A stretch of DNA of 21,773 bases from a virus, in the IMG/VR virus record IMGVR_UViG_3300005356_000020, positions 1 to 21,773 of that record; one strand, written 5' to 3'. Under the pieces are notes generated by a model. It had not been told where the DNA came from. It saw only the letters and a program-made list of their open reading frames with translations, and did not search any database. The position numbers and the translations under genes were made by a program. Within the stretch, counting starts at the first letter, position 1, and each line of letters opens with the position of its first letter. Shown one piece after another: positions 1 to 19,668 of the stretch.

Positions 1-457
1 TTCCGTTTTTCTTCACGATTTCTTCGAGCTGTTCCCACCGCACTTGCCAGACCGATTCACGCGCGTTCAGGCAGTTCTGCTGGTCCTGCGCCAACGTAAT
101 GACCCGACCTAGCGCCTCTGTGGCCTGAGCAACGCGCTCCTGGGTTTGTAGCGATACCGTCGACACAGCCTGCAGAGTCTCGGTCCGGACGGTTATGGCC
201 TGCGCGAGCTTTTCGTTGGCGGACGTACCTTCAGCGAAAACGCGTATGTAGCCCCTCGCTTCGTCAACGCGCTTCTCTTGCAGTTGGTCGCGAAGGTCAG
301 ATGCTTTCTGAGTTTGGATGGTGCAGTTCTCCACAAGCGACTGCCCCCGCATGTAGAGGAGGTAGCAGACCACGAGCAGGATCGCCGAAAGCAGCCAGCC
401 CGCGCCCTGAGAGGCGAGCTGCTTAATCAGCTCGGCGCCGAGTGTGGTCGGGTCCAC
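1..457 (-). CDS. Spanin-like membrane protein with one TM segment, partial (runs off left edge)
   Basis: This is an open minus-strand frame of 152 codons that continues past base 1. The proposed start is a GTG at 457, 9 nt after the stop of the upstream gene, with a weak GAGA element 8 nt or more before it. The protein begins with a short polar stretch, then one hydrophobic segment at about residues 20-36 (WLLSAILLVVCYLLYM). A long hydrophilic region follows, rich in Gln, Glu and Ala and probably helical or coiled coil (for example AQAITVRTETLQAVSTVSL). One N-terminal membrane anchor followed by a periplasmic coiled coil, last in a lysis cassette, is the usual build of an Rz-type inner-membrane spanin. 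A single-segment holin is the other option. The C-terminus and any embedded Rz1 partner lie outside the window, so the role is inferred from topology and position, not from a recognised family motif. Confidence 0.72.
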   Translation of the reverse strand, partial: MDPTTLGAELIKQLASQGAGWLLSAILLVVCYLLYMRGQSLVENCTIQTQKASDLRDQLQEKRVDEARGYIRVFAEGTSANEKLAQAITVRTETLQAVSTVSLQTQERVAQATEALGRVITLAQDQQNCLNARESVWQVRWEQLEEIVKKNG

Positions 458-466
458 GGCACGATC

Positions 467-928
467 TCAAGCGATCCGGCGCGTCGCCCGCCGCCGGCCG
501 ATCCAACCCACGGCGCTGCCAAGGACGCCGCAGACCACGAACGCCGCCACGACGGCATCCCGCACGAGTCCCTGCCGCATGAAGAGGAGGAGTAGTAGCG
601 CCGCCGTGTTGGACACGAACGCGATGGTCGATCCGCGCAGGCCAGCCGACTCGAACCACCGCTTGGGCGGCATCTTCACTTCGAGCGCCCCGAGACACTC
701 GTGCTTGGCGGCTTCATCCCGCGCGGCATCCAAGAGTAGCTGCCGGTTCCGCTCGCTCAGGAAGACGTTCTGGCTGATCCTCGCGCGCTCGATGGAATCG
801 AAGATGATCGCGCGGACATACTTCTGCACGTAGTCGCATCGCCCGGCGGGGTCCTCGGCCACTAGAGCCTCCCATGCCTCACGAATCCGCGGGCTCAACT
901 GTGATAGGTCCAGAGCTAGGCTCGCCAT
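467..928 (-). CDS. Putative holin: lysis-cassette protein with two C-terminal membrane segments
   Basis: The protein has 153 aa and starts with ATG at 928, where it reads MASLALDLSQ. A longer frame to 1126 exists but is Arg/Ser/Pro-rich shadow sequence lying inside the upstream gene. The N-terminal 90 residues are soluble and charged. Two hydrophobic segments follow at about 99-117 (STIAFVSNTAALLLLLFM) and 123-143 (VVAAFVVCGVLGSAVGWIG), with a very basic tail (GRRRATRRIA). A helical hairpin with a positive C-terminus beside an endolysin fits a class II-type holin. The large soluble N-terminal domain is unusual for one, so this could also be another membrane-associated lysis regulator. It overlaps the end of the peptidoglycan-binding gene by 50 nt, which suggests coupled translation, and lies 9 nt before the spanin-like gene. 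I do not recognise a named family. Confidence 0.7.
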   Translation of the reverse strand: MASLALDLSQLSPRIREAWEALVAEDPAGRCDYVQKYVRAIIFDSIERARISQNVFLSERNRQLLLDAARDEAAKHECLGALEVKMPPKRWFESAGLRGSTIAFVSNTAALLLLLFMRQGLVRDAVVAAFVVCGVLGSAVGWIGRRRATRRIA

Positions 929-1496
929 TGTGTAGTCCAGTTCGTTCGGCTTCCAACCGGGCCTGCTTAATCGTTCCGGCCTTGATGGACAGGAACAGGC
1001 CGACGACTGCGACAACGGCGGGCCACGCCCAGGTCGGGATCCATTCGAGGAGCGGCCGCACCGAGTCCGCCATCTTCGAGGCCTCCTCCCAATGGTTGGC
1101 GACGAAGGTAACCAGCGCGATGGCACCGGACAAACAGGTCAGCAGCAGCGAGCCGATGGAGACCTTGTCCGCAGCTTTGATCGTCTTGCTGCCTTCGGCC
1201 CGCAATTCATTCACGGTGACCGACGCCCGCTCCGGCGAAATCTCCCGCCGGTTCTTCTCGGACTTCATCGCCTCCCGCGTGGCCTCGTCATACTGGCCGG
1301 TGACCGGGATTCCGGCCTGCGCTTGCAGAGAGGCGATTGCGCCCGTTGTAGACGGTCCCCAGCGGCCATCCACCTTTCCGACGGTGTGATAGCCCATCTC
1401 GCGCAAACGGCTCTGTACGAGCTCTATTTCGGGTTTGCTGAGGTCGCCAGGCGGCGGGAGGGCTGAGGCGTAGACAGGAAGGTCTAGCGGGGTCAC
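879..1496 (-). CDS. Peptidoglycan-binding domain protein with two membrane segments (holin-like candidate)
   Basis: The protein has 205 aa and starts with GTG at 1496, overlapping the endolysin stop in a GTGA motif (4 bp). Residues about 18-76 match the PG_binding_1 repeat: the motif LVQSRLREMGY, then VDGRWGPSTTGAIASLQ, then GIPVTGQYDEATREAM. A linker is followed by two hydrophobic segments at about 113-133 (SIGSLLLTCLSGAIALVTFV) and 156-172 (WAWPAVVAVVGLFLSI) and a polar tail. PG_binding_1 domains normally ride on cell-wall hydrolases, but no hydrolase domain is present here. The protein looks like a membrane-anchored wall-binding module. It may act as the holin, place the endolysin at the wall, or do both. 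The domain call is from sequence motifs. The lysis role is inferred from position between the endolysin and a second membrane protein. Confidence 0.82.
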   Translation of the reverse strand: MTPLDLPVYASALPPPGDLSKPEIELVQSRLREMGYHTVGKVDGRWGPSTTGAIASLQAQAGIPVTGQYDEATREAMKSEKNRREISPERASVTVNELRAEGSKTIKAADKVSIGSLLLTCLSGAIALVTFVANHWEEASKMADSVRPLLEWIPTWAWPAVVAVVGLFLSIKAGTIKQARLEAERTGLHNGEPSSGPITVEPADS

Positions 1497-2077
1497 GGGA
1501 GGGCTCCTGCGCTGGCGGCGGAGATGGCCGCAATCCGCGCCTCAAGCTCCGCCAGGCGCTTGTCGGTGGCCTCCTTGTAGGCGGCGAGATCCGCCTTCAG
1601 CGCGGCCAGCGGATCAATCGGCGGAGTCACAGGCGGTTTGACCGTGCGATAGAGGGCCAGGGCCTTCTCGGCGAACTTCACCCGCGCCGGCCAGTTCTTG
1701 ACACCGGCCCGCTCGAAGGCGGCCTCAAATGTCTCAGCGGCAGCCTTTGCTGTCGTGGTGAGCTTCAGCTTCTGAATAGAAGCCTTCTCGCTGGTTTGAA
1801 GCTCATGCAAGAGGTAGCCATAGTTGGCCTCGTAGCTCGTGATGGCGAGCTTCTTGGCCTTCGCCCAGTTCTCGAATGCCACCCGGCGCGGTCCGGTCCA
1901 TTGCGCGACTCCAAAGCCGCCGCGACCCGACACCGGGTTCTTCTCCTGGATGGCGAGGAGGCCACTTTCCGCCGCTAGGTTCCCGACGATCCCAGCAGCC
2001 TGCTCCTCTGTGAGGTCCAGGTCGCGAATGAGGTCGGACATATAGCGCGGAGCCAAATTCGTGAAAGCGTCTGCCAT
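1493..2077 (-). CDS. Endolysin, phage tail-lysozyme-type peptidoglycan hydrolase
   Basis: The protein has 194 aa, with ATG at 2077. Residues about 20-130 resemble the Phage_lysozyme2 (tail lysozyme) family. It shows LTEEQAAGIVGNLAAESGL, with the candidate catalytic acid at Glu37 in AAES, followed by GGFGVAQWTGPRR at residues 53-65. It would cleave the glycan backbone of peptidoglycan at the end of infection. A Pro-rich hinge (VKPPVTPPIDP) leads to a helical, probably coiled-coil tail (about 153-188). There is no signal peptide, so it needs a holin to leave the cytoplasm. It is the first gene of the lysis cassette, and the next gene overlaps it by 4 bp. No convincing ribosome-binding site precedes the start. 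The same domain can also occur as a tail-associated enzyme, but the free-standing form and membrane-protein neighbours favour an endolysin. Confidence 0.88.
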   Translation of the reverse strand: MADAFTNLAPRYMSDLIRDLDLTEEQAAGIVGNLAAESGLLAIQEKNPVSGRGGFGVAQWTGPRRVAFENWAKAKKLAITSYEANYGYLLHELQTSEKASIQKLKLTTTAKAAAETFEAAFERAGVKNWPARVKFAEKALALYRTVKPPVTPPIDPLAALKADLAAYKEATDKRLAELEARIAAISAASAGALP

Positions 2078-2101
2078 GGGTCACCAGTCGAAGTCGCGGC
2101 G

Positions 2102-2130
2102 ACCTTAGATGTTCGTCGCGTTGCGGACAA
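2102..2130 (-). promoter_or_regulatory. Possible minus-strand promoter upstream of the endolysin
   Basis: Read on the minus strand, TTGTCC (2125-2130) and TAAGGT (2102-2107) are separated by exactly 17 bp. The -35 matches the sigma-70 consensus at 4 of 6 positions, the -10 at only 3 of 6. It lies in the 126-bp gap between the divergent endolysin and the plus-strand 98-aa gene, where a promoter for the lysis genes is needed if the tail transcript does not reach them. The evidence is weak and by eye. Confidence 0.25.
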
Positions 2131-2145
2131 ATCTTCAGCGGGAGC

Positions 2146-2174
2146 TTGCCGACACACCTGCGCCGGGATAGCGT
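2146..2174 (+). promoter_or_regulatory. Possible plus-strand promoter for the 98-aa gene
   Basis: TTGCCG (2146-2151) and TAGCGT (2169-2174) are 17 bp apart and would start transcription about 20-25 nt before the ATG at 2204. The -35 is 4 of 6 to consensus and the -10 is 3 of 6. Because the downstream gene faces against all the tail genes it must have its own promoter. This is the best-placed candidate in the gap, but the match is weak. Confidence 0.28.
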
Positions 2175-2203
2175 CAGGCCCTCACCCTCAAGAGGATTAC
2201 GCA

Positions 2204-2500
2204 ATGCCAGACACTATCCCCGTCTCATTCAGAGGCGAACCGCTGGACCTGCCCAAGTGCGCAGCGGCGGATCACTTCAACATTCAGCCCACGCAAGAGC
2301 TGACCAACAACCTGCTGTGGTCTCTGGCCGACCTGATGCGGAAGGACGCCGACCCGCAGGTGGCCGAGCGGGGAGAACAGCTTTGGAGGCAGTTCGCTCT
2401 CCCCGACGACCCAAAGGTCTTCTCTGGCCTGGATTTCAGTCACATGGCTTCTGCAGTGGAGGCCGCCAAGGCCGATCGCTCGGACGTGAAAGTCGGCTAG
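2204..2500 (+). CDS. Hypothetical 98-aa protein, opposite strand, between tailspike and lysis genes
   Basis: I do not recognise the family. The gene is on the plus strand, unlike nearly everything else. A good ribosome-binding site (AGAGGA at 2191-2196) lies 7 nt before the ATG. The protein is soluble with no membrane segment or signal peptide. It opens with a short beta-like stretch (IPVSFRGEPLDLP) and is then mostly helical, with acidic and basic residues mixed (LTNNLLWSLADLMRKDADP, VAERGEQLWRQFALPDDPKV). It contains one Cys and no metal-binding cluster. Its stop codon ends one base before the stop of the convergent tailspike gene, so there is no room for a terminator between them. Independent expression suggests a moron or regulatory gene carried in the late region. 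Function is unknown. Confidence 0.78.
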   Translation: MPDTIPVSFRGEPLDLPKCAAADHFNIQPTQELTNNLLWSLADLMRKDADPQVAERGEQLWRQFALPDDPKVFSGLDFSHMASAVEAAKADRSDVKVG

Positions 2501-2501
2501 G

Positions 2502-5500
2502 CTACTTCCGCACGCGAAGAAAAAGCGTGATCTGGTTGAGCCCGAGCGTCGCGGAGCCGGTGTTGACGATGTTGTAGTGGAGCACCCCGCCGAACTGCAG
2601 CTGTGCCTCAATCCGGCAGTGCTGATCGTTGTCGTTGCCCGCGACCGACGCACGGGTCATGGCGATGGTCAGCTCGTCGCTCGCGCCAATCCCCGAGGTG
2701 CTCCCGGTCCATGTCTGCCAGCCGGTTTGACCGCCGGCTGGGACAGCCGACAGGGTAATCGGGCCGATCGAGCGCAGATCCTCGATCTGGCCGAAATTGG
2801 CCCATGTCTTCGAGGCGTTGGCCGCCCCGCCCGTCAGGACAGCCCGGCCAACCCATCCCCCTTTAACAAGCGCGCCCGGGTCGTCGGTTGGATACCCAGC
2901 ACCACCGTCTTGCTTCTCGTACCAGGCAATGTCACCGACTCCGAGCTTCAATTCATTGAGGTGCTCAGACTTGGTGACGACCTGCCGTCTGAGCTGCCAC
3001 CCGAACGACAGAGGGTTGGCAAGCGCGAAATAGGGAAAGACATGCAGGCCGCCTTCTGGGGCTTGGCCAGAGCCGTCCTGGCCAAGACCAGAGCTGTTTC
3101 CCCCGGTGAGGGCGAAGATGTAATTGCGCGGGTTCGTGTCGGACCCTGCGCGGTGGACAAGATTGTCGCCCTCGATCTGCCTTTTCAGCGACATCGACCA
3201 GCCCGAGGCCGACATCCTGTCGAAATACATCGTGTTGTTTTCGGAGCTGGCGAGGGAGTAGTTTAGCGTTTGGCGCGTGGTCGCGTCCGAGTAAAAGGTG
3301 CGGCTGATATTCAGGTCGCCGAGGAACGTATTGCCGGTCCACATGACCGCATACATCCCCGGAAGGTAGCCCGATCCGAGCGAGTTACCCGCAACGAAAG
3401 CCTGGCGACAATAAATCTGCGTGCACCCCTGCCCGCCCTCGGCATACGAGCCGATCAGGACCGAGCAGTTGTTGACGCCCGCGATGTAGTAGGCACCACC
3501 GTCCTTGTAGTACCCAATCTGCTGGTTCGGAATCCAGTCCTTGCCGTTGGGCGCTATGCCTGTCGAGTAGAGAACCCAGACCTGCTCGTTCGTCCCCGGC
3601 ACGGTGTCGACATAAGCCTGCCAGTAGTCCGGGCAGTTGGTAAACTCGTAGCTCGCGCGAGGCGTATAAGTGTTGCCTCCGTAATAGACCCAGACGCCCT
3701 GGCGGTAGAAACCAAGGTAGCCGTGCCCATAAGGGCTGTTCGCGTTGTCCGTGCCGTGGATGCCGCTCCAGTGGTTACCCAAGAAGGAGATCTCCTCCAT
3801 GGTCCACCAGCCGTTATAATTGAACTCCGAGTTGATCACCGTCCCTGCGTTCGAGTCTGGGCCGTGAACACGGATGCCCGAACCGCCGCACCATTGGACC
3901 GTGGTGTTTTGGACGCGGAAGCAGTTGGCGTTACCCGCCGGGTACCCGTTGCCGAGCGCCTTCGGATTGTCGGTCGCGGCCGAGCAGCTCGTGACCACGT
4001 AAATTCCGTGGCAGGGAAAGCTGCCGACAAACACGTTGTCCAGCGTCACGCGCACACGCATGATGATGCCGTGCGCGAGCGGCCTCATATCCTTGTTGGT
4101 GTCCGACTCCGAGAAAATGGCGATGCCCTGGAGCATCGAGCCGGCCGAATGCGTCGCCCTTGCCGGACTCACAAGCACCTGATTGGTGGCGCTGTCGCCG
4201 TCTGTGTTGACGTAGTGAAAAATCAGGCCGCATTGGCCGAGCGGGAACGCCCACACGCTCTTTTGCCAATTCGTCTGCGTTCCCTCGCCGACGATCTTAA
4301 CGACGCCCTTCGTGACCGTGATCGCCTTCTGAAAAGCGTACCACCCCGACTGGACGCGCAGGGTCCGGTAGGGCGAATAGAAGCCGTAGTTAATGAGATC
4401 GTGATAGGCTTCCCATGCCGCTTGGTTCTGTGCCGCGCCCGTCGTGTAGTTGCCATATCCCGACGAGATGGTGCCCAAAGCGTCGAAGTCGACCACGCCA
4501 TCCGTGCTGACAAGTTGCCACCACGAGCCGCCGGACACGTTCGTATCGCCAGCGGCATGGATAAACGCCGGGTTTGTATCATACGGAGCGCTCGGCGCTC
4601 CCGACATGCGCGCATATTTTGCGCCGCCGCGCGTGTCCGAAACCGTATGGTCGAAGCACCCTGTTTCGATGTGCTTGATCGTGAGCGGAATATCTGTCGC
4701 GGCAGCCACGGCTGCGCGATCCTGAAACCAATAGCCGCCCGCCGGGCCTGGCGCTCCGGTCGCGCCCTGTGCGCCTGAGCCCGAGGCACCAATGGTCACA
4801 TCAAGCCGGTCCTGGCCGGTATTGTCGCTGAGGGTGATGGCGACGTTGCTGCCTTCGATCAGGTTGATGGCTTTGCGCGTCCCGATCAGCGTTCCCGACT
4901 TCAGAACGCCCACGCGCTGCTGGGTCGTGTTCGGAAGGACCGCAAGGGATACCGTGCCGGCGCTATCGTCGTAGGTTGCGTCAATCGTGGCGGTGTCGAC
5001 GAGCATCGCGCCCACGACGTCCTGGACCGCCTCTGCGTCGAGCGCACCGCCGCCGCCCCCGCCGCCCGCTGCTGTCGCGGCGGCGTCCCACGAACTATAG
5101 CCGGACGGCAACCACGAGCTTGTCGCGAAGTCAGCCGTTACGGAGCGATTGCCGGCGCCCTGCAGTTCCAGGACTGGAAGGATTGTCCCGGTCGGCACCG
5201 TAATGGCGTTCGTGCCGCTGACCGGGTTCCCGGTGTTGCCGTCGAACCCATAATACGTGGTCCCGTCGTAGCTGTACCAGGCCTTTCGGGCGTCGAGGTC
5301 TACAACCCAATACACCGCTGTCGTGGGGCCGGGATGCCCGGTGCCGAAGCTGCCATCTGCGCCGAGGAAAACGCTGGAGCTGTCGGTGTGTGGGTACAGG
5401 CCGACTGAGCCCGTGTGGCCGGCGTAGCTGGGCGTTGCCCCTTGCTTCAGCAGCCCGTTGCCGATCTCGCCGCCCGCGAGCGTCAGCTTAAAGCCGGCCT

Positions 5501-6281
5501 TTCCGCTCGAGAGGCCCTGCGTGCCATAAACCCAGGTGCGACTGGTCTGCGTCCCTGTCGCCGCAGTCAGATTGCCATTGCTAAGCGTGACATCGGGATC
5601 GGCTGTCGCTGGGTTCCAGGTTGTTGAGACTGAGACCGCATTCCCTGGAGCCGCGCTCGCGGAGATGGTGATGTCAACGCGATCCGAGCCGGCGTTGTCG
5701 GCCGTCGCGATCGTGACATTCGACCCCTGAATCAGGTTGATGGTCTGGCGCGTTCCGATGGCCGTACCGCCCTTCTGGACGGCGACCTTCTGCTGGCTGG
5801 TGTTCGGCTTGACCGCGAGGGAGACCGTCCCGGCATTGTCGTCGTACGTGGCGTCGATGGTCGCGGTATCGACCACCATGGCGCCCACGACGTCCTGGAC
5901 GGCTTCCGTGTCGAGCCCGCCACCACCACCGCTACCACCGGCGGCTGCCGCAATGGTCACGTCGACCCGTTCGGAGCCGGCGTTGTCCACCACCGTCAGT
6001 GTGGCGTTCGCGCCCTGGACGAAGTTAATCGCCTGCCGGGTGCCGATCAGCGCGCCGTTCTTGAGGACCCCGACCTTCTCCTGCACCGAGTTCGGCTTGA
6101 CGATGAGGGTCAGGAGATTCCCGTTGTCGTCATAGACTGCGTCGACGGTAGAGGAGTCTTGGATGAGAGCCCCGACCCGATCGTCAACGGCCTCGGCCAG
6201 GCCCGACACATTGGCGGCAGCAACCGACCCGCCTGACCCGCCACCGCTGGACCCAAAGATGACATCGGAGAGTCGGGTCAT
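2502..6281 (-). CDS. Giant mosaic tailspike: repeat stalk, SPRY-like domain, collagen-like stretch, beta-helix
   Basis: The protein has 1259 aa, with ATG at 6281 and an AAGAGG ribosome-binding site 5 nt upstream. A Gly/Ser-rich N-terminus leads to three copies of an 84-87-residue module (about 24-110, 123-206 and 414-497). The copies share a GTRxxINxxxGxNxxxxxxDN core and end in RxDVTI or RVDITI. Between copies 2 and 3 lies a domain of about 185 residues (213-398) with SPRY/B30.2 character, including SSGKAGFKLTLAGG, GSVGLYP and VYWVVDLDARKAWYSYDG. Poly-Gly linkers and four Gly-X-Y triplets (503-514) precede a long region that reads as a right-handed beta-helix of the pectate-lyase type, with rungs such as HGIIMRVRVTLDNVFVGSF and GSGIRVHG. 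The final ~80 residues look like a beta-rich trimerisation or cap domain. It probably binds and depolymerises a surface glycan. No catalytic residues can be assigned by eye. It lies at the end of the tail operon and is convergent with the 98-aa plus-strand gene. Confidence 0.9.
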   Translation of the reverse strand: MTRLSDVIFGSSGGGSGGSVAAANVSGLAEAVDDRVGALIQDSSTVDAVYDDNGNLLTLIVKPNSVQEKVGVLKNGALIGTRQAINFVQGANATLTVVDNAGSERVDVTIAAAAGGSGGGGGLDTEAVQDVVGAMVVDTATIDATYDDNAGTVSLAVKPNTSQQKVAVQKGGTAIGTRQTINLIQGSNVTIATADNAGSDRVDITISASAAPGNAVSVSTTWNPATADPDVTLSNGNLTAATGTQTSRTWVYGTQGLSSGKAGFKLTLAGGEIGNGLLKQGATPSYAGHTGSVGLYPHTDSSSVFLGADGSFGTGHPGPTTAVYWVVDLDARKAWYSYDGTTYYGFDGNTGNPVSGTNAITVPTGTILPVLELQGAGNRSVTADFATSSWLPSGYSSWDAAATAAGGGGGGGALDAEAVQDVVGAMLVDTATIDATYDDSAGTVSLAVLPNTTQQRVGVLKSGTLIGTRKAINLIEGSNVAITLSDNTGQDRLDVTIGASGSGAQGATGAPGPAGGYWFQDRAAVAAATDIPLTIKHIETGCFDHTVSDTRGGAKYARMSGAPSAPYDTNPAFIHAAGDTNVSGGSWWQLVSTDGVVDFDALGTISSGYGNYTTGAAQNQAAWEAYHDLINYGFYSPYRTLRVQSGWYAFQKAITVTKGVVKIVGEGTQTNWQKSVWAFPLGQCGLIFHYVNTDGDSATNQVLVSPARATHSAGSMLQGIAIFSESDTNKDMRPLAHGIIMRVRVTLDNVFVGSFPCHGIYVVTSCSAATDNPKALGNGYPAGNANCFRVQNTTVQWCGGSGIRVHGPDSNAGTVINSEFNYNGWWTMEEISFLGNHWSGIHGTDNANSPYGHGYLGFYRQGVWVYYGGNTYTPRASYEFTNCPDYWQAYVDTVPGTNEQVWVLYSTGIAPNGKDWIPNQQIGYYKDGGAYYIAGVNNCSVLIGSYAEGGQGCTQIYCRQAFVAGNSLGSGYLPGMYAVMWTGNTFLGDLNISRTFYSDATTRQTLNYSLASSENNTMYFDRMSASGWSMSLKRQIEGDNLVHRAGSDTNPRNYIFALTGGNSSGLGQDGSGQAPEGGLHVFPYFALANPLSFGWQLRRQVVTKSEHLNELKLGVGDIAWYEKQDGGAGYPTDDPGALVKGGWVGRAVLTGGAANASKTWANFGQIEDLRSIGPITLSAVPAGGQTGWQTWTGSTSGIGASDELTIAMTRASVAGNDNDQHCRIEAQLQFGGVLHYNIVNTGSATLGLNQITLFLRVRK
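4740..4775 (-). repeat. Short collagen-like Gly-X-Y stretch in the tailspike
   Basis: Residues 503-514 of the tailspike read GAQGATGAPGPA, four Gly-X-Y triplets directly after the third stalk module and just before the beta-helix. Collagen-like segments are common in phage fibres, where they support trimer formation. Four triplets is very short, so this may be only a flexible hinge. Confidence 0.6.
4791..5042 (-). repeat. Tailspike stalk module, copy 3
   Basis: This is an 84-residue unit (residues 414-497) beginning LDAEAVQDVVGAMLVDTATI and ending RLDVTI. It is very close to copy 2 in protein sequence. The DNA retains a block of 20 identical bases (5008-5027 here against 5881-5900 in copy 2). 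It is separated from copy 2 by the SPRY-like domain. Confidence 0.88.
5088..5645 (-). other. SPRY/B30.2-like domain inserted in the tailspike stalk
   Basis: This segment encodes residues about 213-398. The order of features is typical of SPRY folds: an opening TWNP and VTLSNGNLTA strand, the SSGKAGFKL turn-and-strand, a GLYPHTDSS loop, VYWVVDLDARKAWYSYDG (the strand pair of 'virtual' body plus label), and a closing hydrophobic strand ILPVLELQGAG. SPRY domains bind proteins or glycans. In phage spikes such inserted domains are plausible adhesins. The assignment is by pattern only; another jelly-roll fold is possible. Confidence 0.65.
5664..5915 (-). repeat. Tailspike stalk module, copy 2
   Basis: This is an 84-residue unit (residues 123-206) beginning LDTEAVQDVVGAMVVDTATI, with core GTRQTINLIQGSNVTI, ending RVDITI. 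It is flanked on its N-terminal side by a Gly-rich linker (GGSGGGGG). It is the closest relative of copy 3. Confidence 0.88.
5952..6212 (-). repeat. Tailspike stalk module, copy 1 (most diverged)
   Basis: This is an 87-residue unit (residues about 24-110) with VSGLAEAVDDRVGALIQDSS at its start, GTRQAINFVQGANATLTVVD in the core and RVDVTI at the end. It keeps the same order of motifs as copies 2 and 3 but is more diverged, which suggests that copies 2 and 3 duplicated later. Confidence 0.85.
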
Positions 6282-6475: not shown

Positions 6476-7192
6476 TCAGGTCATCGTGAGCTTGCCGGAG
6501 TAGTAGGTTTTCAGGGACTTCCGAGCGGCGATGAGCTGCGCCTGGGTCAAAACGCGGTCGTAGGCTGCGACGTAGGCCACATCTCCGCCGCCTGTCGCGG
6601 AGGTCCCGACCTGAAGCACGGTACCCGAATGGCGCCCACCGCCGGCCTGCTGGCCGGTCGCTGTCACGACGGTCGGAGCGTCGTCATTGTTGCCATAGAT
6701 GAAGTAGACCTTGCCGGGTTGGCCAAGCGGGCCGGCGCCGGCGATGAAGATGAAGTTGCCGCCATGGCCCGAGAGACTGACCTCAGGGTTATTTGGGCCA
6801 GCAGACCATTGGCTGTTCCAGAAGCTGAGCGTGCTACTCGATAGTTCCAGACCGAGAATGCTCTGTCCGCCGACCGAGCCCTCGAGTGGTGAGAACGCGT
6901 TGCCGCCAGGCACCTTGCAGATGGCCATCACGGTCACATCGCCGGCAGGGAGATAGCCGGTGTTGAAGCCGTTCTGGCCGAAGTTGCCGCCCGAGGTGGA
7001 CACATAATTCGGCGAGTAACTCGGCGTACCCACCACGGTCAGAGGCGCGGCAGAATTTGCCCGGTTGACGACGCTCTTCGACTGGTTGCCGCCGAGGACG
7101 GCTTCCAGGGCCAGGTTCTTCAAGTCAGGCAAGGACAGGGACGCAATCACCTTCGTGAAGCGCACGCCGGCGACTCGGATTGAGGTGGGCAT
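6476..7192 (-). CDS. LamG/concanavalin-like lectin-fold tail protein
   Basis: The protein has 238 aa. I chose the ATG at 7192, which overlaps the upstream stop as TGATG. A GTG one codon earlier is the alternative. After a helical leader (about residues 15-40) the protein is beta-rich with the spacing of a LamG or Concanavalin A-like jelly roll: a strand DVTVMAICKV, a central ILGLELSSSTLSFWNSQWSA, and the characteristic closing segment DVAYVAAYDRVLTQAQLIAA followed by a helix. Such domains bind sugars. Placed between an esterase fibre and the tailspike, it is most likely a receptor-binding or fibre-accessory protein of the virion. No enzyme motif is visible. The fold call rests on the pattern at the end of the domain and overall strand order. 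Confidence 0.75.
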   Translation of the reverse strand: MPTSIRVAGVRFTKVIASLSLPDLKNLALEAVLGGNQSKSVVNRANSAAPLTVVGTPSYSPNYVSTSGGNFGQNGFNTGYLPAGDVTVMAICKVPGGNAFSPLEGSVGGQSILGLELSSSTLSFWNSQWSAGPNNPEVSLSGHGGNFIFIAGAGPLGQPGKVYFIYGNNDDAPTVVTATGQQAGGGRHSGTVLQVGTSATGGGDVAYVAAYDRVLTQAQLIAARKSLKTYYSGKLTMT

Positions 7193-9549
7193 CACAGAGA
7201 CCTTTCAAAAATCACGCAGAAGTTATCCATCCGCTTGTTGATGCCGGTTGGATTGAAAACGATGCTATCGCCCTGCTGATCGCGGAGGTTGCCGCCCGCA
7301 ATGGTCGGCGGCGAGCCGATGAGGCCCCAGCCATAGCGGACCTTCGAGTTGGCCTGGAGGTCGATGGTGGTTTGCAGCCGGACCGTGCGAGGCCCGACGA
7401 TCTCAGGCAGGCCAGCGAGCGTGTATTGAGAGTTCGCGCTGTTGACGACTTGGAAGCCATAGTTGGGATACGTCGGGACCTGCGTCGTATCCCAGACCAG
7501 CTTGCCGACGGGAACGTGGAACGTGAGCAGAATGGTGCGGAGCTGGCCAACCGCCGCGATGCAGTCGAGCGGCGCCCAATCGGTTTTTCCGTCCAGAATA
7601 ATCCGCTTGTACGTCAGGCCGTAGAAGGCGCCGAGCCACTTCGAGCTGGCCGCCGTCAGGTGCGGCTGATCGGCCGTCGGAAATTGGTACATCGGGCAGG
7701 CCACTTTGAAGAGTGGATTGGTCTTGGACAGCGCAAGCTGCGCGAGGGCGCAGGTTGGAGAGCCGCCATTGCCCGCGAACACGTGGTCGGCGCTCTGGCC
7801 GCAGATCATCAGGACCGGCTGCGTCTGCCCGGTAACCGCACGAATGTCAGCGTCCTGGTCGTTGACTAGTTGGTTCAGGGCGGTCTGGTAAGTGCTCTGC
7901 GACGTGCCGGCCAGCATATCGGACGTGCCCTGCGTCCAGGTCGTTGCCCCGACGGCAAACGTGCGCCCGACCGCGTTCGACTCCGTCTTGGCTCCGGATG
8001 CCGTGTTGATCAGGCCCGTGTAGCCGCCGCCTGAATTGCCCTTCGACAGCTGGGCGACGGTCGTCGACGAGACACCGGCCGCCGCGCCGAAAAACGCATG
8101 CTTGAAGTCGTTGGTGGTCAGGAAGTTCTCGGCGCCGATGCGCTCGATCACGCACTCCAGCGAGCCTGTGACGGGCGTCTCGCCGACGTTGGATGCGGTC
8201 GGTTGGACCTGCTCGAATGCCCCGGTCAGGCCCGAGCCCGAGCTCTCACCGGGCCGGATGCCCGAGGTGAAGCGCAGCGCATGGTTCGGGAAGCGAGCGG
8301 TGCCGGAAACGACCGGGACAGCTGACACGCCTTGAGCCAGCGATTGGCCATAGCCGATCAGGCCGATGACGTCGGCTTTGAAATCCGGGACGGCCGGAGC
8401 CGGGGCGCTGGCACCGCCGGCCAGGATGGTGGCGATCGGAACGTTGTTGATGCTGTCCGTCTGAAGGCCGCCGATCGACGCCGTGTCGAACGCGGCGTCC
8501 ACCATCCGGAAGGAGCCGTCCGGGCGCAGGCCGCCGGAGACCTGCTCGAATTCGTCCAGGAACGCGAGCGAGAAGCTGTCCAGTCCGATGCTGACGAGCT
8601 GGATGTCCTCCGTCCCGATCTCCTCGGAGAGAACCGAGGGCGATGTGAACTCGGCTGTCTCGATGGCCGCGAAAACCGAAGTGCCGTCCTCCTTAATGCC
8701 CCAGGGCGCGCGGTCGGAGTCATCAATCACCGAAGCCGCGTATCCCAGCGGCGCGACGAACGGCAGCGGCTCGAGCGCAGCCTCAAGCCCTGAGCGGCTC
8801 GGAACCTCATTGATGGCCGTCGCCGAGCTGCCGCTGCGCCGGTAGAGGGTGAGGAATGTGTTCGAGGGAGCCGCAGACGGGACGTAGAAGTACCCGCCAT
8901 CGGCTGTGGCCGCGATGCCGGCCGCGGTATCGGGATAGACGAGTCCCGCAGCTGCGGCTGAGCCGGCCGACGCTTCGGCATCCGCCGCGTGTCCGGCTGC
9001 GGCTGTGCTCGATGCCGCTGCGGCGTCGGCGCTGTTTTGCGCGGCCGTTGAGTAGGTTTGAGCCTCAGCTGCGGCGTCCACCGCGGCCTGTGTCGGGTCG
9101 GAGGAAATGGCGATGCCGACGCTCCAGTCCGCAGCCGTCGGGCCATTCTTGACGTAGAGGCGCGCCGGTGTGGGCGAGGCCGCCAGGAACAGGAAGGGCG
9201 GGACCACCAGGTCGAATTGGGCCCGGTCCGCAATGGTGCCGGCGTAGTCGGGACTCAGCGGCAGCCCGAGCTTGATCTTCTCGAGCAGCTCGTTGACCTT
9301 AGCCAAGGTCGTGACGTTGTCGTTCCAGAAGTCGCCCGTCTTGAGGATTTGGAAGTCGGTCTGGTCGGCCACGGTGGCACCCGGCCACGCATAGGCCAGC
9401 GTAATCCGCGTGGTCGAGTCGACGCTGGCAATCGGGACGGCGAGCCCGGCCAAACTGAAGAGGTCGCCCTCCGCGCCGACGAAGCTCGTGAGATACCCCG
9501 TGACAACTGCGGAGCTCTCAGTGACGGTGACAGAATTGGCGACGGGCAT
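7192..9549 (-). CDS. Tail fibre with SGNH carbohydrate-esterase domain
   Basis: The protein has 785 aa, with ATG at 9549. Residues 1-70 resemble a common phage fibre N-terminus that docks on the tail (SVTVTESSAVVTGYL, LAYAWPG). An Ala-rich helical shaft follows (about 153-202). The C-terminal half from about residue 390 carries motifs of the SGNH/sialate-O-acetylesterase-like family. These are GYGQSLAQG with nucleophile Ser403, TTWTQGTSD (536-544, the block that supplies the oxyanion hole) and DQPHLT with Asp628 and His630. The predicted activity is removal of acetyl groups from capsule, exopolysaccharide or O-antigen during adsorption. A distal beta domain (about 660-785) may trimerise the fibre or bind sugar. 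It follows the 67-aa gene by 3 nt and overlaps the next gene by a few bases. Confidence 0.88.
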   Translation of the reverse strand: MPVANSVTVTESSAVVTGYLTSFVGAEGDLFSLAGLAVPIASVDSTTRITLAYAWPGATVADQTDFQILKTGDFWNDNVTTLAKVNELLEKIKLGLPLSPDYAGTIADRAQFDLVVPPFLFLAASPTPARLYVKNGPTAADWSVGIAISSDPTQAAVDAAAEAQTYSTAAQNSADAAAASSTAAAGHAADAEASAGSAAAAGLVYPDTAAGIAATADGGYFYVPSAAPSNTFLTLYRRSGSSATAINEVPSRSGLEAALEPLPFVAPLGYAASVIDDSDRAPWGIKEDGTSVFAAIETAEFTSPSVLSEEIGTEDIQLVSIGLDSFSLAFLDEFEQVSGGLRPDGSFRMVDAAFDTASIGGLQTDSINNVPIATILAGGASAPAPAVPDFKADVIGLIGYGQSLAQGVSAVPVVSGTARFPNHALRFTSGIRPGESSGSGLTGAFEQVQPTASNVGETPVTGSLECVIERIGAENFLTTNDFKHAFFGAAAGVSSTTVAQLSKGNSGGGYTGLINTASGAKTESNAVGRTFAVGATTWTQGTSDMLAGTSQSTYQTALNQLVNDQDADIRAVTGQTQPVLMICGQSADHVFAGNGGSPTCALAQLALSKTNPLFKVACPMYQFPTADQPHLTAASSKWLGAFYGLTYKRIILDGKTDWAPLDCIAAVGQLRTILLTFHVPVGKLVWDTTQVPTYPNYGFQVVNSANSQYTLAGLPEIVGPRTVRLQTTIDLQANSKVRYGWGLIGSPPTIAGGNLRDQQGDSIVFNPTGINKRMDNFCVIFERSL

Positions 9550-9756: not shown

Positions 9757-10240
9757 ACGTCACCTTGAACTGGCCCGTCTTGTGGGTGACGCTCTCAATG
9801 GTGACCCGGTACGTGTCCGGCGTATCGAATGAGAGCTCGATGTCTGGGTCGGACCAGTCATAGACCTGCGGAGTCCACCAATCGTTGCGGCCTGCCGCAA
9901 ACGGCACCGAGACGAAGACCTTGCAGGGAACGGGCAGGCCCGTGATGGTGAGGCCGCTGATAGTCGCCGTGAAGTCAGCCTTTGGGCGCAACTGCTTCGT
10001 GGCGAGGTCAACATAGTTGCCGGCCATGAAATCCATGTGCTGGTCGAACGGCACCGTTGGCGCATGGATGTAGGGCCGGTCCTGGTCGATGTGATCCAGG
10101 ATGTATGTCCTTGGCATCTGGCCGACTTCCATGATCTCGCCGGTGGCCGGGTCGTAGCGCACGAACCCATTCGGCTCCGCGATGCCGGGATCTGAGTCGA
10201 ACCAGTTCTGGATCATGATTTGCGGCGTGAAGCTCGTCAC
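9746..10240 (-). CDS. Tail tip-associated protein of unknown function (164 aa)
   Basis: The start is GTG at 10240, chosen because AGGAGG stands 7 nt before it and because GTGA overlaps the tip-protein stop. A longer frame from 10306 lies inside the tip gene and is not supported. The protein is mostly beta: an N-terminal part with FVRYDPATGEIMEVGQMP, a middle IHAPTVPFDQHMDFMAGNYV, and a C-terminal half with alternating strands (ADFTATISGLTITGLPVPCK, YRVTIESVTHKTGQFKVTYA) that reads like an Ig-like or beta-sandwich domain. I do not recognise a named family. Its location directly after the gpJ-type tip protein and before the fibres suggests a connector or adhesin-base protein. A virion role is inferred from context. 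Confidence 0.8.
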   Translation of the reverse strand: MTSFTPQIMIQNWFDSDPGIAEPNGFVRYDPATGEIMEVGQMPRTYILDHIDQDRPYIHAPTVPFDQHMDFMAGNYVDLATKQLRPKADFTATISGLTITGLPVPCKVFVSVPFAAGRNDWWTPQVYDWSDPDIELSFDTPDTYRVTIESVTHKTGQFKVTYAG

Positions 10241-13200
10241 TTCGATGCCTCCTGGATAACGATGCGCACGAGCCCGCCGACGGTGGAGCGCACCGTGAAA
10301 TTCCACGTCCCGGCTCCGGGATTGGTGAAGGTGATGAGCAACGTCTGAAGGCGCGCAAAGCCGGAGCTGTTGTTGGCGCCGGAGGCCTCATAGTTGAAGG
10401 AGATGCCGTCGACCTGGGTGTTGTTGAGGTCGAAGAAGAGCTGCCCGACATCGGTTCCGATCGGGAGGTACGACCCCGCGGCGCCGTAGTAGTAGCACCA
10501 GACGATCCAGTTGCCCGACCCGCGCGACGTCGCTGTGATTGTCGCCTGGCCGTTGGCGGTCGCGCCAAACACCTGCGTGATGGCGAAGTTCTTGATGTGG
10601 ATGTTGTCGACGATCAGATTCCCAATCTGGGCGCTGACCGAGATGATATTCTGCGTCTGAAGCGCGGCACCCGAAATGGTGCCTGTCACGACCAGGTTGC
10701 CGTCGATGCCGAACTGGCTGACAACCGTGCCAGCGGCGTTCCGGTATCCCACGAGTCTAAAGCCGCCGACCGCTTGCCCGTCGGACGTGATGGACACGCC
10801 CCAGAACCCGGTCTGGCCATCCAGAACCTGAGAGACCTGGCTGATCGTCGTCGTGTGCCCACTCACCGTCGACGAGAGCGACGTGATGTCCTGGGCCATC
10901 GAACTATCGGCATCGGCCCGGACCGTCTGCTCCTGCACGAGAGCGGCCTGCGTGTCGTCGGCCTGCGCCTTCAGGGTCAGCCGCGCTGAGGCCTCCGCGC
11001 CGTCCGCGTCAATCCGCGCCGTGCGCTCGTCGACGATGGCCGCTTCGGCGCCGTTGAGCCGGACCGCCAGCGTGTCGGTGGTCTGCGCAAGCGCCTCGTC
11101 TTCCGAGATGCGCAGCGTCTCCTCATGCCGGATCGCCGCGAAGGCGGTTCCGACCTGACCCTGCAGCGCCACCTTCACATAGCGGTCGCTCTCATAGGTG
11201 CGCCCGGCCTCGGTTGTGGCAGCCGCGGCCAGCTCATTGACCTTCTTGTCGAGGTCGCGGACGGCCTTGCGAAGCGAGCCCTCACCGATCGAGCTGATCT
11301 TCGCGATGTCGTTCCGGACCTGCTCGGAGAGATCCTCAAGGCGGACAACCAGCGATGCAAACTCGTTCGTGATGTAGGGCTTCCAGATTGTGAAGCTGCC
11401 ATTCACGAACGGGCTCTGAATCCCGTACTTGTTGACCGCGTAGGCCCTAATCCAAGCCGTGCCTGTGTTGTCGTCCGTAAGACCGACGACTCGAAGCGGC
11501 CAGCGGCCGGATTGGGAGAGTCCCTCGGAGATGCGCTCGCTGGTGGCCCAGTTGTCGTAGCTCAGGTCCACGACAATGAGCGAGGCGTTCTTGACCCGGC
11601 CGACAGCCCACTCGACGCTGGTCTGGGCGCTGTATTGGACCGTGTGGGCGTAGATGTAGGCGATCTGCGGGACCGCATCGTCCGCGTCGCCCACGGCCGA
11701 AGCACCGGGATCAACCGCGACCTCGCCGAGCGCCTCCCACACGCGCGGGTCATCGTGCAGCGCCTCAATCGACACCGTATCGCGCGAGCGCGGGATAGCG
11801 GACTGAATGAGGTAGGGCTCGCGGACCTCCTCGACCGGGCCGACCAGGACCGATGTCATATCCTCGACGTCGGTGGCCATGATGTCCTGGATCTGGACGC
11901 CGTACGCGCTCTCCAGGCTGCTCACGTCGGAGGAGTTAAGAACGATCTCCCGCAGCGACGCGCCTTGCGTGAAGTCGATAGGCCCGAAGTCCAGGTTATT
12001 CCGGTCCCGGATCGTGATCTTCGACGTGCCGTCGGCCGGGCAATCCGCGTCCAGCGTCAGCGTGAGGCCGGACCGGGCCACCACGCCATAGGCATTACCC
12101 TCTGTCAGGAACCACGAGTCGACGAAGCACGGGTCGTTGCGCTTGACCAGGCGCCCGGATAGCTCGGTCGTGAAGCTCCTGCGCTGCCGCCGGAAGTAGT
12201 TGCTCGCGGCCATCCAGGTCGCGATGTGCGTGGCGTGGGCGTGGTTGGTGACGCCAGCCAGATTGATCCGGCGCGGCGTCGTCGTGCTGGTGCCAAATGT
12301 GACCCGCGTCTCGCGCCGGCGCCGCGGGTCGCCATCAAAGAAGTACTCGGCGATGACGTCGGAGTCGCCGGTCCCGCCGCCGACCGTGAAGGTGCTCTTT
12401 GAACTGCCGCGCAGGATCTGCCGACGTGTGAAGGTGTGCTTGCGAATGTCGCGACTCTCGTCGCGCGTAAGAGACCACGCATTGCCGATCCGCAGCGGCT
12501 CGGCGCGCATGGCGCCCAGGATCGTCTGGCCCGCCTCAAAGACGCTGACAGGCCCGCGCACCACGCCGTTGAACGTGTCATTCGAGCCCGGGAAGGCCGC
12601 GTAGTGCTGGATCATGCCAATGTCGATGGCTGAGTCCGGCAAGTTCGCGCCGTACACCACGCCACCAACCGAGCCGCGCAGGACGTCCGCATACGCCCAG
12701 GCCGCCTTGTCGGTCTCGACAAGCTGCCACGAGCCGCCGATGTAGACCGGGATAATCGCGCTGGCCTGCACCAGGATGTCGCCGAACCCGGTCACGCCGA
12801 GGCTTTTGCCCGAGGTGATCTTGATGGCGATCTCGGTAACGTGCGGCCGGGTGACGTTGTAGCCCGTGAAGGCTCTCAGGCCGTCCAGGACGATCTTGTT
12901 GTGGTTGCCCTGAGACTCGTTCAGGCCGTTCTGGAAGCGGAAGAGATAGCGCCCGGTCGCGATGGAGAACCGCGGCGAGAAGCGCATCGCCCGCGTGTTT
13001 TTGGTGCTTGCGGCTTGCGTGAAAGCGGTGAACCAGCTCCCGACCGGATTATTGTCGTCATCCGCGAGCGCCGCCTCGACCACGAGAGAGTAGCTGCTGC
13101 CGGTCTGGCTGATGGCGTTGGTCTGCGCGTTCGTGACCTCGGCATAGCAGCCCTCAGGCAGCGTAAAGTCGACCTGGTACTCCGAGGCCGTCACGCCCAC

Positions 13201-14115
13201 CGGCGTGCCCGGGAATGGGCCGCTGTAGGCCGGAGTCTGGTTCGGGCGCTGGAGTTCGTTCCCGCCAACCTCCGAGGCGCTGTAGACCGTGTTCGGCACG
13301 AGCGCAGAGGCCGCGCCCGGCTGGATGACCTCGATTTGCGAAGCGAAGAACGTCGGCTGGATGCCCGTGTCCTTGTCCCACAGGACCGCGCGACCGACTT
13401 GAATCTGCTTGATGTCGTAGTAGCCGAGCCCGACCGTCACCCTTTTGTAGAGGATCTGGTCCTCGCCGGAGTAGACGAAGTAGTCCGGCTGGCTGAGGTC
13501 CGGGTTCGTCCAGAACTGCCCATAACCGCGCGGGATACGGTCGCCGGGCCTGGGCTGGTTTCCGCCGCCTGAGACGCCATAGAGTGGCCGGTCCTCTGCG
13601 TCCTGCGTGCCGGGCTTGTTGGCCTTGGACTGGAAGGCGCGCTGGATGAGGTAGCCGCCACCGGCGATGACTGCGGCGCTGGCCACCGCAGACGCGACGG
13701 CCGCCGTCGTGCCGGTCAGGCCGAGGCCTCCGATAACCGGCCCAGCCGGGCCCAGTAGCACCGTTGCAGCCACAGCCAGCGCCACCATCGCGACGGCACT
13801 GCCAATCTGCTTGCCGGCGGACGGCTTGGCGGCCGTGCCCGACGCTGCGGCGCTGCTGCTGCCACCCATCGGGAGGTAGACAATGGCAACCACATCGTCC
13901 GGGCCGACCAGCGTATGCGCCCAGTCCTTGCGCAGGCGGTCGTTCTCTTCGTGCAGGACCGCCGGATCGGAAATGTGGCGGGTGTTGACGATGAAAGGTC
14001 GGCGGAGGTTCGCGTGGCGTTTAACCACCGACGAGAGTCGTCGCCGACGCCGATCTAGCGTGATCGGATCCGCAACCGCTTTCCCGAGGATGTTCTGTTG
14101 CAGGATCAGCGCCAT
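10237..14115 (-). CDS. Tail tip / host specificity protein, gpJ-type with gpI-like N-terminus
   Basis: The protein has 1292 aa, with ATG at 14115. Residues 1-165 resemble a gpI-type tail assembly protein. They hold a basic N-terminus (DRRRRRLSS) and a long hydrophobic, Gly/Ala-rich segment at about 104-158 (VAMVALAVAATVLLGPAGPV). From about 175 the sequence matches the gpJ/TipJ hub pattern (LYGVSGGGNQPRPGDRIP, DYFVYSGEDQILYKRVTVGL). A fibronectin-III-like stretch follows around YDNWATSERISEG and AWIRAYAVNKYG. The C-terminal third is helical with repeated acidic-basic heptads (TARIDADGAEASARLTLKAQ), then a DUF1983-like beta region (QTGFWGVSITSDGQAVGGF). It forms the central tip that contacts the receptor and closes the tube. 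Lambda encodes gpI and gpJ as separate genes; here they appear fused. There is no strong ribosome-binding site in the 38-nt gap upstream. Confidence 0.92.
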   Translation of the reverse strand: MALILQQNILGKAVADPITLDRRRRRLSSVVKRHANLRRPFIVNTRHISDPAVLHEENDRLRKDWAHTLVGPDDVVAIVYLPMGGSSSAAASGTAAKPSAGKQIGSAVAMVALAVAATVLLGPAGPVIGGLGLTGTTAAVASAVASAAVIAGGGYLIQRAFQSKANKPGTQDAEDRPLYGVSGGGNQPRPGDRIPRGYGQFWTNPDLSQPDYFVYSGEDQILYKRVTVGLGYYDIKQIQVGRAVLWDKDTGIQPTFFASQIEVIQPGAASALVPNTVYSASEVGGNELQRPNQTPAYSGPFPGTPVGVTASEYQVDFTLPEGCYAEVTNAQTNAISQTGSSYSLVVEAALADDDNNPVGSWFTAFTQAASTKNTRAMRFSPRFSIATGRYLFRFQNGLNESQGNHNKIVLDGLRAFTGYNVTRPHVTEIAIKITSGKSLGVTGFGDILVQASAIIPVYIGGSWQLVETDKAAWAYADVLRGSVGGVVYGANLPDSAIDIGMIQHYAAFPGSNDTFNGVVRGPVSVFEAGQTILGAMRAEPLRIGNAWSLTRDESRDIRKHTFTRRQILRGSSKSTFTVGGGTGDSDVIAEYFFDGDPRRRRETRVTFGTSTTTPRRINLAGVTNHAHATHIATWMAASNYFRRQRRSFTTELSGRLVKRNDPCFVDSWFLTEGNAYGVVARSGLTLTLDADCPADGTSKITIRDRNNLDFGPIDFTQGASLREIVLNSSDVSSLESAYGVQIQDIMATDVEDMTSVLVGPVEEVREPYLIQSAIPRSRDTVSIEALHDDPRVWEALGEVAVDPGASAVGDADDAVPQIAYIYAHTVQYSAQTSVEWAVGRVKNASLIVVDLSYDNWATSERISEGLSQSGRWPLRVVGLTDDNTGTAWIRAYAVNKYGIQSPFVNGSFTIWKPYITNEFASLVVRLEDLSEQVRNDIAKISSIGEGSLRKAVRDLDKKVNELAAAATTEAGRTYESDRYVKVALQGQVGTAFAAIRHEETLRISEDEALAQTTDTLAVRLNGAEAAIVDERTARIDADGAEASARLTLKAQADDTQAALVQEQTVRADADSSMAQDITSLSSTVSGHTTTISQVSQVLDGQTGFWGVSITSDGQAVGGFRLVGYRNAAGTVVSQFGIDGNLVVTGTISGAALQTQNIISVSAQIGNLIVDNIHIKNFAITQVFGATANGQATITATSRGSGNWIVWCYYYGAAGSYLPIGTDVGQLFFDLNNTQVDGISFNYEASGANNSSGFARLQTLLITFTNPGAGTWNFTVRSTVGGLVRIVIQEASK

Positions 14116-14153: not shown

Positions 14154-14597
14154 TCAGGCGCGCGGCACAAACAGGGTTGGGTACGCCCAGGTGCGGATGC
14201 GCGGCAGTTCGAACAAGCTATCGAACACGACGCCGTGCCCGTCGTCCATGTGCAGGACTCCGCCGCCATCGAGGTTCAGATACACGCCGGCGTGCTCGAT
14301 GAAATTCGGGTCATGGCCGCGCCGGTGCATCAGAGCCACAGCCCAGTCCGTCATGCCGGCGATCGTCTGGACCCAGTTGCAGCGCTCTGGATGAGTCGTA
14401 AACGCCAGTGCCTTAGCACGCCGCTTGTCTGGTGGAATGGCCGAGACCGGCAACTCTATGCCGAAGAGCTCGAGCACCACCTTGCGGGTAAGGACCCAGC
14501 AGTTCATGTAGACCGGGTCCCACGGTAGCTCCAGGAGGCCATTGACGTAGCGGCTGACCTCATCCGCCTTGAAGCGCGGGATAGTACTGACTGTCAT
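14154..14597 (-). CDS. gpK-like NlpC/P60-family tail tip assembly protein
   Basis: The protein has 147 aa. I chose ATG at 14597 (MTVSTIPRFK); a longer frame to 14705 gives a non-homologous Arg/Cys-rich leader. It overlaps the DUF1833 gene by 38 nt. NlpC/P60 features are the Cys33 region (MNCWVLTRKVVLELFG), where the catalytic Cys starts the first helix, and EHAGVYL at about 101-107 with the candidate catalytic His102, followed by GGGVLHMDDGHGVVFDS. In lambda the gpK homologue is a tail-tip assembly protein whose peptidase fold is thought to help local wall opening. The usual Asp before the Cys is replaced by Asn. Catalytic competence is therefore plausible but not shown. Confidence 0.85.
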   Translation of the reverse strand: MTVSTIPRFKADEVSRYVNGLLELPWDPVYMNCWVLTRKVVLELFGIELPVSAIPPDKRRAKALAFTTHPERCNWVQTIAGMTDWAVALMHRRGHDPNFIEHAGVYLNLDGGGVLHMDDGHGVVFDSLFELPRIRTWAYPTLFVPRA

Positions 14598-15045
14598 AGG
14601 TGGCGAGCGGGAATGCCTGCAGTTCCAGCTCTCTATACCGCAGAGAGCCCTCGGCTGTCGTGGCTGTAACCTCGACATCCCACAGCTCGAGATCGCTGAT
14701 CTCATCGCCGACGTTGAACTTGTCGGAGTCCAGGAAAGCTCGGTACGTCACCTTGATGGGCGAGTCCGCATTCACCGCCTCGCGCAGGTACGTCACCAGG
14801 ATTCGGCTGACGTTGTCGATGGAGATCTTCGCTGGCGTAGGACCGTCCTCAGAAGAGCCTGGGAGCGTCACTGAGACCGGAATCGCCTTATAGAGCTGTC
14901 CACCTAGGGTCATATCGTCGGTGGCGTTGGCGACGATCCTAATAGGGCTCTCGAAGGTGATGTGGTCGAGGACCAGGCACTCGTAGATGATGTCGTCATG
15001 CGGGACGTTCGCATACGCCTCCGCCATCGCAATCGAGCGCGTCAT
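14560..15045 (-). CDS. DUF1833-family minor tail protein (gpL analogue)
   Basis: The protein has 161 aa, with ATG at 15045, 2 nt after the upstream stop. An internal ATG at 15027 is a possible alternative. The DUF1833 pattern is visible: an AEAYANVPHDDIIYECLVLD opening, the strand ITFESPIRIVANATDD, VTLPGSSEDGPTPAKISIDN, a helix (NVSRILVTYLREAVN), and KVTYRAFLDSD. In lambda-type tails the gene between gpM and gpK is gpL, a tip component. In many alphaproteobacterial phages that slot is held by DUF1833 proteins. It has no lambda gpL-type iron-sulphur Cys cluster, and only one Cys is seen. The role in the tail tip complex is inferred from family and position. Confidence 0.85.
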   Translation of the reverse strand: MTRSIAMAEAYANVPHDDIIYECLVLDHITFESPIRIVANATDDMTLGGQLYKAIPVSVTLPGSSEDGPTPAKISIDNVSRILVTYLREAVNADSPIKVTYRAFLDSDKFNVGDEISDLELWDVEVTATTAEGSLRYRELELQAFPLATYDSQYYPALQGG

Positions 15046-15047: not shown

Positions 15048-15431
15048 TCAGAAATCCAAGACGTTGAGTTCAAAGTTCCAGATGAAGTGGTCAGCACCAT
15101 ACGGGTCTGGGCCTTTGATGGACCCGCCGGTGATGTAGACCGTCTTGTTCGGCCAGGTCCCGACGGTGCCGCGGCGCGCAACCGGCATCGTGAAGCGGCT
15201 CGAGCCGTGGCCAAGCGTGTCGCGCAGGAAGGTGTGCAGCGTATCGGACTGCGCTTTCGTTACCACGATCTCGTACGCAAGCTTGGTCCAATTTGCGCTG
15301 GCCCACCGCCTCTGAATGGCCGGGCCATCCTCGACTTGATTGACGGCGGGATCGGCAAACGGTTTCGTGACCTTGAAGGCATCGTACCTCGGTGCGTACG
15401 GGACGCTGCCCGGCCAAGCAGGAATTGCCAC
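15048..15431 (-). CDS. Minor tail protein (gpM-position)
   Basis: The protein has 127 aa. The start is GTG at 15431, overlapping the tape measure stop, with GAGAGG about 5 nt upstream. It begins AIPAWPGSVPYAPRYDAFKV and includes GPAIQRRWASANWTKLAYEI, a layout seen in short tail proteins that follow tape measure genes in many siphoviruses. The middle is mainly helical with a central strand, followed by FTMPVARRGTVGTWPNKTVY and a beta-rich C-terminus ending NFELNVLDF. It is probably a distal tail or tip component in the gpM position. It carries no enzymatic motifs. Operon context is clear because both neighbours are within a few bases. Confidence 0.8.
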   Translation of the reverse strand: MAIPAWPGSVPYAPRYDAFKVTKPFADPAVNQVEDGPAIQRRWASANWTKLAYEIVVTKAQSDTLHTFLRDTLGHGSSRFTMPVARRGTVGTWPNKTVYITGGSIKGPDPYGADHFIWNFELNVLDF

Positions 15432-19518: not shown

Positions 19519-19563
19519 TGCACCATCCTCAAGCTGGTGCACGACTCCTAGCTGTTCAGGCTG

Positions 19564-19668
19564 TCAGTGGCGAGTTTCGTAAATGGCGAAGGCCAGGAGG
19601 ATGCAGCCTCCTGGCCTTCTGGCTCCGCGGTGCTCTAGCTGGCGCGCCCGAACTGCGATCCGCGCCAT
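19564..19668 (-). CDS. Possible 34-aa ORF between chaperone and tape measure
   Basis: This ATG-started frame begins 9 bases after the gpT-like stop and fills the gap before the tape measure gene. The peptide is Arg-rich at first (MARIAVRARQLEHRGARRPG) with a short hydrophobic stretch (CILLAFAIYE). No strong ribosome-binding site precedes it. A perfect hairpin lies in its middle, which argues more for a structural RNA element than for a protein. It is listed because the gap is otherwise unexplained. Confidence 0.2.
   Translation of the reverse strand: MARIAVRARQLEHRGARRPGGCILLAFAIYETRH
19588..19619 (-). promoter_or_regulatory. Perfect 13-bp hairpin upstream of the tape measure gene
   Basis: Arms GAAGGCCAGGAGG (19588-19600) and CCTCCTGGCCTTC (19607-19619) are exact complements around a 6-nt loop. 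The stem is long and GC-rich enough to form in RNA of either strand. On the minus strand it is not followed by a U tract, so it is not a standard intrinsic terminator. It could be an attenuator, an RNA-processing or 3'-end-protecting structure, or a partial pause that sets the ratio of chaperone to tape measure. Confidence 0.65.

Follow-up and report, generated by a model that had tools for sequence, protein, structure and literature searches.

A SPRY domain between repeated stalk modules of a probable siphophage tailspike

The SPRY fold is best known from animal immune proteins, and animals use it to recognise pathogens. What role might such a domain play in a phage tail protein, where it lies between two copies of one repeated module and ahead of a beta-helix-family spike, and are binding heads swapped between the repeats, as a first-pass annotation of this DNA suggested? 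We addressed these questions in the 21.8-kb window (the whole stretch of viral DNA, of environmental metagenomic origin, that was analysed), whose main genes lie on the minus strand.

Tail context and domain order of the spike gene

The spike gene lies downstream of the genes for the tape measure, TipJ and two other tail proteins. The gene set is a siphophage-type tail module, so that the spike gene would stand, judging from the order of tail genes, where receptor-binding proteins are expected.

15433-19542, minus strand, tape measure gene (TMP_3, tape_meas_nterm)
15048-15431, minus strand, virion structural gene
14560-15045, minus strand, DUF1833 minor tail protein
10237-14115, minus strand, TipJ-family tail tip protein
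7192-9549, minus strand, tail fibre of 785 aa (phrog_4201, 1.8e-92; SASA/SGNH esterase signal below threshold, residues 494-644)
6476-7195, minus strand, phrog_4390 protein of 239 aa, immediately ahead of the spike
2502..6281, minus strand, spike gene, whole (intact ORF of 1259 aa, ATG at 6281, stop at 2502)
1493-2077, minus strand, tail lysozyme
879-1496, minus strand, peptidoglycan-binding protein

Three features of the surroundings may be recorded here. The tail fibre with the SASA/SGNH signal is possibly a second sugar-modifying tail protein; the phrog_4390 protein reads as a LamG/ConA-type lectin and has no Pfam match; and a near-perfect 32-bp palindrome at 19588-19619, just upstream of the tape measure gene, is possibly a terminator.

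From its N-terminus, the spike protein consists of a short N-terminal part, module 1, a Gly linker, module 2, a SPRY domain, a second Gly linker, module 3, a collagen-like stretch, a beta-helix-family spike and a small C-terminal beta domain.

6213..6281, minus strand, putative N-terminal anchor, aa 1-23, with a Gly/Ser run at aa 10-18 (from the sequence; attachment role presumed)
5952..6212, minus strand, stalk module copy 1, aa 24-110 (local scores and HMM; helix plus six strands in the model)
5916..5939, minus strand, poly-Gly linker, aa 115-122 (from the sequence)
5664..5906, minus strand, stalk module copy 2, aa 126-206 (local scores and HMM; DNA identity to copy 3)
5088..5645, minus strand, SPRY/B30.2 domain, aa 213-398 (phrog_10080, window-free HMM, family profile to TRIM9, Foldseek to TRIM67)
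5046..5066, minus strand, poly-Gly linker, aa 406-412 (from the sequence)
4782..5042, minus strand, stalk module copy 3, aa 414-500 (local scores and HMM)
4731..4775, minus strand, short collagen-like stretch, aa 503-517 (from the sequence)
3201..4721, minus strand, beta-helix spike body (likely fold), aa ~521-1027 (Vibrio phage relatives, window-free HMM, family profile to 7chu)
2505..2774, minus strand, apparent C-terminal beta domain, aa ~1170-1259 (several strands in the model, pLDDT ~45-75)

The low-complexity elements of the first-pass annotation are all present, with poly-Gly linkers at the second and third of the runs at aa 10-18, 115-122 and 406-412, and a Gly-X-Y stretch that is short (aa 503-517, GAQGATGAPGPAGGY).

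Three copies of one stalk module

The protein does contain three copies of one module of ~85 aa, as had been proposed. BLOSUM62 local scores between the modules are 265 (1 versus 2), 346 (2 versus 3) and 265 (1 versus 3), far above the highest shuffled score of 65, and a window-free HMM built only from the modules of other organisms finds exactly three copies in the spike, with domain E-values of 1e-20 to 1e-23. By this HMM, all three copies comprise the full module with both halves, as in phrog_30390. Copies 2 and 3 are 75% identical in protein sequence, compared with 53% for copies 1 and 2, and at the DNA level they are 76% identical over 218 bp, which marks them as old copies and not as an assembly echo. 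A Gly run immediately precedes each of these two copies (aa 115-122 for copy 2, aa 406-412 for copy 3), which suggests that "Gly linker plus module" is the unit of repetition.

Full-length relatives of the module occur in Synechococcus phage S-CBS4 gp47, in related viral contigs and in a cyanobacterial MAG. The module or its first half stands in tandem in many phage fibre-like proteins; it is for the tandem repetition of the first half that we call it a stalk unit, and the earlier reading of the modules as a stalk is reasonable on the same ground. The AlphaFold model shows one helix followed by about six strands per copy at moderate to low confidence (pLDDT ~50-77), and the module profile matched no structure in the PDB. 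A weak, sub-threshold Pfam match of module 3 to BACON was judged to be due to chance.

The segment between modules 2 and 3 is a SPRY domain

A Pfam search with the whole protein and its parts gave no SPRY or spike match, and the SPRY segment alone gave none even at E 10. Residues 213-398 do match phrog_10080 (E 1e-8), other members of which match Pfam SPRY (PF00622) directly, namely a DoCa8 virion protein (3e-20), the AH2 tail fibre (1.4e-5) and SURPRISE13 (2.6e-5); by sequence, membership of the spike segment in PF00622 would be reached through such intermediates, not directly. A scan for relatives of the segment yielded 36 viral loci; a search of the plasmid collection gave no match. Searched against the PDB, a 37-sequence family profile (A6), which includes the spike's own segment, found TRIM9 as the best match (E 2.4e-17), together with TRIM67, RanBP9/10, RyR, Ash2L and DDX1, and an HMM built without the spike protein recovered the segment at E 2e-28.

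The structural model leads to the same assignment. AlphaFold predicts most of the segment with pLDDT ~90-97, and the model has the SPRY beta-sandwich fold by Foldseek, which against the PDB returned TRIM67 (TM 0.74 by target, E 4e-9) and, more broadly, TRIM67, TRIM9 and MID1 (TM 0.70-0.80 by target). The best 50 PDB matches are all SPRY domains or SPRY-bearing proteins or complexes, and the best matches in a viral structure library are phage proteins annotated as "B30.2/SPRY" and the AH2 tail fibre. Thus, by profile, fold and relatives, the SPRY-like insert proposed between copies 2 and 3 is a genuine SPRY/B30.2 domain, and its proposed limits, residues 213-398 (5645-5088), are right. Two further matches were discarded: the one in Mycobacterium phage TarsusIV is antisense to an annotated gene and was rejected, and the one in Achromobacter phage 2-1, on the strand opposite to an annotated CDS, was set aside.

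Spike body and C-terminal domain

The family of residues ~520-1027 is small and also comprises Vibrio phage proteins (E 7e-7) and sequences from seven viral contigs. The window-free HMM of this family matches the spike with E 4e-36, with a match that already starts within module 3 (aa 425), so that the spike body can be given only an approximate N-terminal limit. Homology to the tailspike/pectate-lyase-like family follows from this HMM, from the relative L075, which carries PF12708 and the phrogs "EPS depolymerase" and "tail spike", and from the match of the spike family profile to the pectin lyase 7chu (E 2.4e-7, with only ~90 positions covered). The model of the spike body is poor (mean pLDDT 43), with a regular short-strand pattern at aa ~640-840; Foldseek with this model returned 7chu, RbmB and AlgE4 (E from 5e-6, for 7chu, to 4e-4). 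A beta-helix fold is therefore likely from the family profiles and, weakly, from the model, as the first-pass annotation had it, but its upper limit of residue 1180 is not supported, since the spike family match stops near aa 1027.

Relatives of the spike body bear other N-termini, P22-type head-binding-like in L074 and L076 and T7-fibre-type in L080, which is the usual mosaic pattern of tailspikes. In the model, the C-terminal ~90 residues look like a small beta domain of their own, and the relative L077 has, by eye, a similar ending.

How unusual the domain order is

Each part of the protein is known in phages. SPRY domains have been published from phage tail proteins, where they are common, and the same holds for tandem stalk modules; the unusual part is the order, with SPRY between two copies of one stalk unit, followed by a spike. 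An association of phage SPRY domains with tail fibres and further virion components has been described (PMC7824862), and insertion between stalk repeats is not described in the part of that source considered here. The closest known systems share parts of the architecture. The tail fiber gp46 of Burkholderia phage AH2 (phrog_10080) has a SPRY domain 33% identical over 96% of the segment (Foldseek E 3e-11), but its SPRY is N-terminal and followed by DUF2793, it lacks stalk modules, and the spike profile does not match it. The tail fiber gp47 of Synechococcus phage S-CBS4 (phrog_30390) has one full stalk module (~46-47% identity), but this is a single copy at the N-terminal end, in a protein that has no SPRY domain and is unmatched by the spike profile. 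Hypothetical proteins of Vibrio phages 1.193.O and 1.115.B share the spike body (27% identity over ~175-200 aa, with the SFLGN motif in common), whereas their N-terminal parts differ and contain neither modules nor SPRY. Pectin-lyase-like tailspikes (Geobacillus virus E2 ORF18, 7chu; the P22, Dettilon and CBA120 TSPs) resemble the spike body by profile and by a weak fold match.

Among the loci fetched, which were found with short conserved peptides as search patterns and are limited in sampling accordingly, SPRY and stalk modules occur together only in the spike protein. All other SPRY-bearing ORFs in these loci (some of them duplicate records) are without stalk modules, and no stalk modules were found in the SPRY proteins of MMDA13, S-BM3, ACP17 and PCA1. 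The domain order is thus unusual within the searchable data, as had been claimed.

The broader plan of a SPRY domain between repeated units is rare in this sample and not unique, for in L049 two copies of an unrelated repeat (score 179 versus a shuffled maximum of 59) flank a SPRY domain. Another partial parallel is L020 (IMG/VR contig 3300046028_002863), where adjacent genes at 379-4188 encode a collagen-like fibre, a stand-alone SPRY and a half-module plus, by eye, a pectate-lyase-like spike; here the SPRY gene directly precedes the gene with tandem half-modules and a pectate-lyase-type-looking spike, but these are two separate proteins with half-modules only. L051, in which SPRY adjoins low-complexity repeats (score 159 versus a shuffled maximum of 110), was not counted as a clear parallel. 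The L049 frame (2-3247) is open for 1082 residues and runs off the start of the locus, with long tandem DNA repeats in the region after it, and tandem SPRY domains occur in the phage proteins L053 3875-5695 and L043 3308-5953.

Discussion

We consider the protein to be probably a receptor-binding protein of a siphophage, either the tailspike or a short side fibre, that bears two kinds of head, the SPRY domains on the stalk and the distal beta-helix. In the proposed arrangement, three chains would form a trimer and be fixed by their N-termini to the TipJ tail tip, with the repeated modules and Gly linkers forming a jointed stalk from which three SPRY domains would protrude as a further group of binding heads. 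The distal beta-helix would bind, and perhaps cut, surface polysaccharide, although no catalytic residues were identified, and the SPRY domain, a concanavalin-like sandwich, could make the first or an additional contact with a surface protein or sugar. Such a protein would illustrate concretely how a phage adhesin may acquire another binding head while the tip spike is kept, and it adds a phage case for the SPRY fold.

This architecture could have arisen by duplication of the stalk unit (Gly linker plus module) and addition of SPRY at the joint, since Gly joints presumably tolerate insertion; copying of "linker plus module" would be expected to leave modules 2 and 3 most similar to each other and each directly behind a Gly run, as they are. 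The further proposal that heads are swapped between stalk units found no direct support, as the collections yielded no close relative in which the segment is missing or another stands in its place, and base composition is not odd: GC and GC3 are even across all parts of the spike gene, with the SPRY segment inside the gene's range, and thus give no sign of a recent SPRY insertion. Searches for close relatives via TipJ and the SASA fibre led back only to this same phage, in a near-identical contig that stops in module 2, and to a short fragment of 4.4 kb (98% identical) whose end lies within TipJ. Exchange of heads is therefore something we infer, with indirect support from L020, which has the parts in question as individual genes side by side, and from L049. 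The protein has a somewhat better than even chance of being an ordinary mosaic tail fibre, its order one among a great many random combinations and not the product of any special head-swapping logic. Such a reading is compatible with the receptor-binding function proposed above and denies only the swapping; it draws on the wide occurrence of SPRY and of the modules, each in many contexts, and on L049 with its SPRY between copies of another repeat, whereas in the spike SPRY sits at a Gly joint flanked by the two stalk units most alike, which points to some constraint, albeit in a single case. A stronger generalisation, in which Gly joints between duplicated stalk units are a general exchange site where phages insert lectin-type heads to give two-headed spikes, SPRY being one cassette, seems doubtful to us. 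If heads were exchanged at Gly joints, host-recognition domains could be predicted from metagenomes by what separates repeated stalk units.

The position of SPRY, with stalk units on both sides and away from the tip, together with the "unknown function" annotation of phrog_10080, would also suit a structural spacer or an assembly/chaperone-contact element in the shaft. We regard this as rather improbable compared with a receptor-binding head, because in phage relatives SPRY occurs N-terminally, C-terminally, in tandem and as a gene of its own, a range of positions more in keeping with an independent binding domain than with a fixed part of the shaft, and because the solved SPRY structures that match include many with a peptide or protein bound.

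A metagenomic mis-assembly that joined two fibre genes via similar modules is highly improbable: the second contig, IMGVR_UViG_3300025937_000026, shows 2 mismatches to the window in 16,084 bp and stops inside module 2 at 5690, so that the end of module 2, module 3, SPRY and the spike are backed by one assembly only, but no exact repeat in the gene is longer than 20 bp, which is little to mislead an assembler, and the frame is open for 1259 codons with the even composition noted above. The end of the second contig inside module 2 may mark a point where a variant caused the assembly graph to branch.
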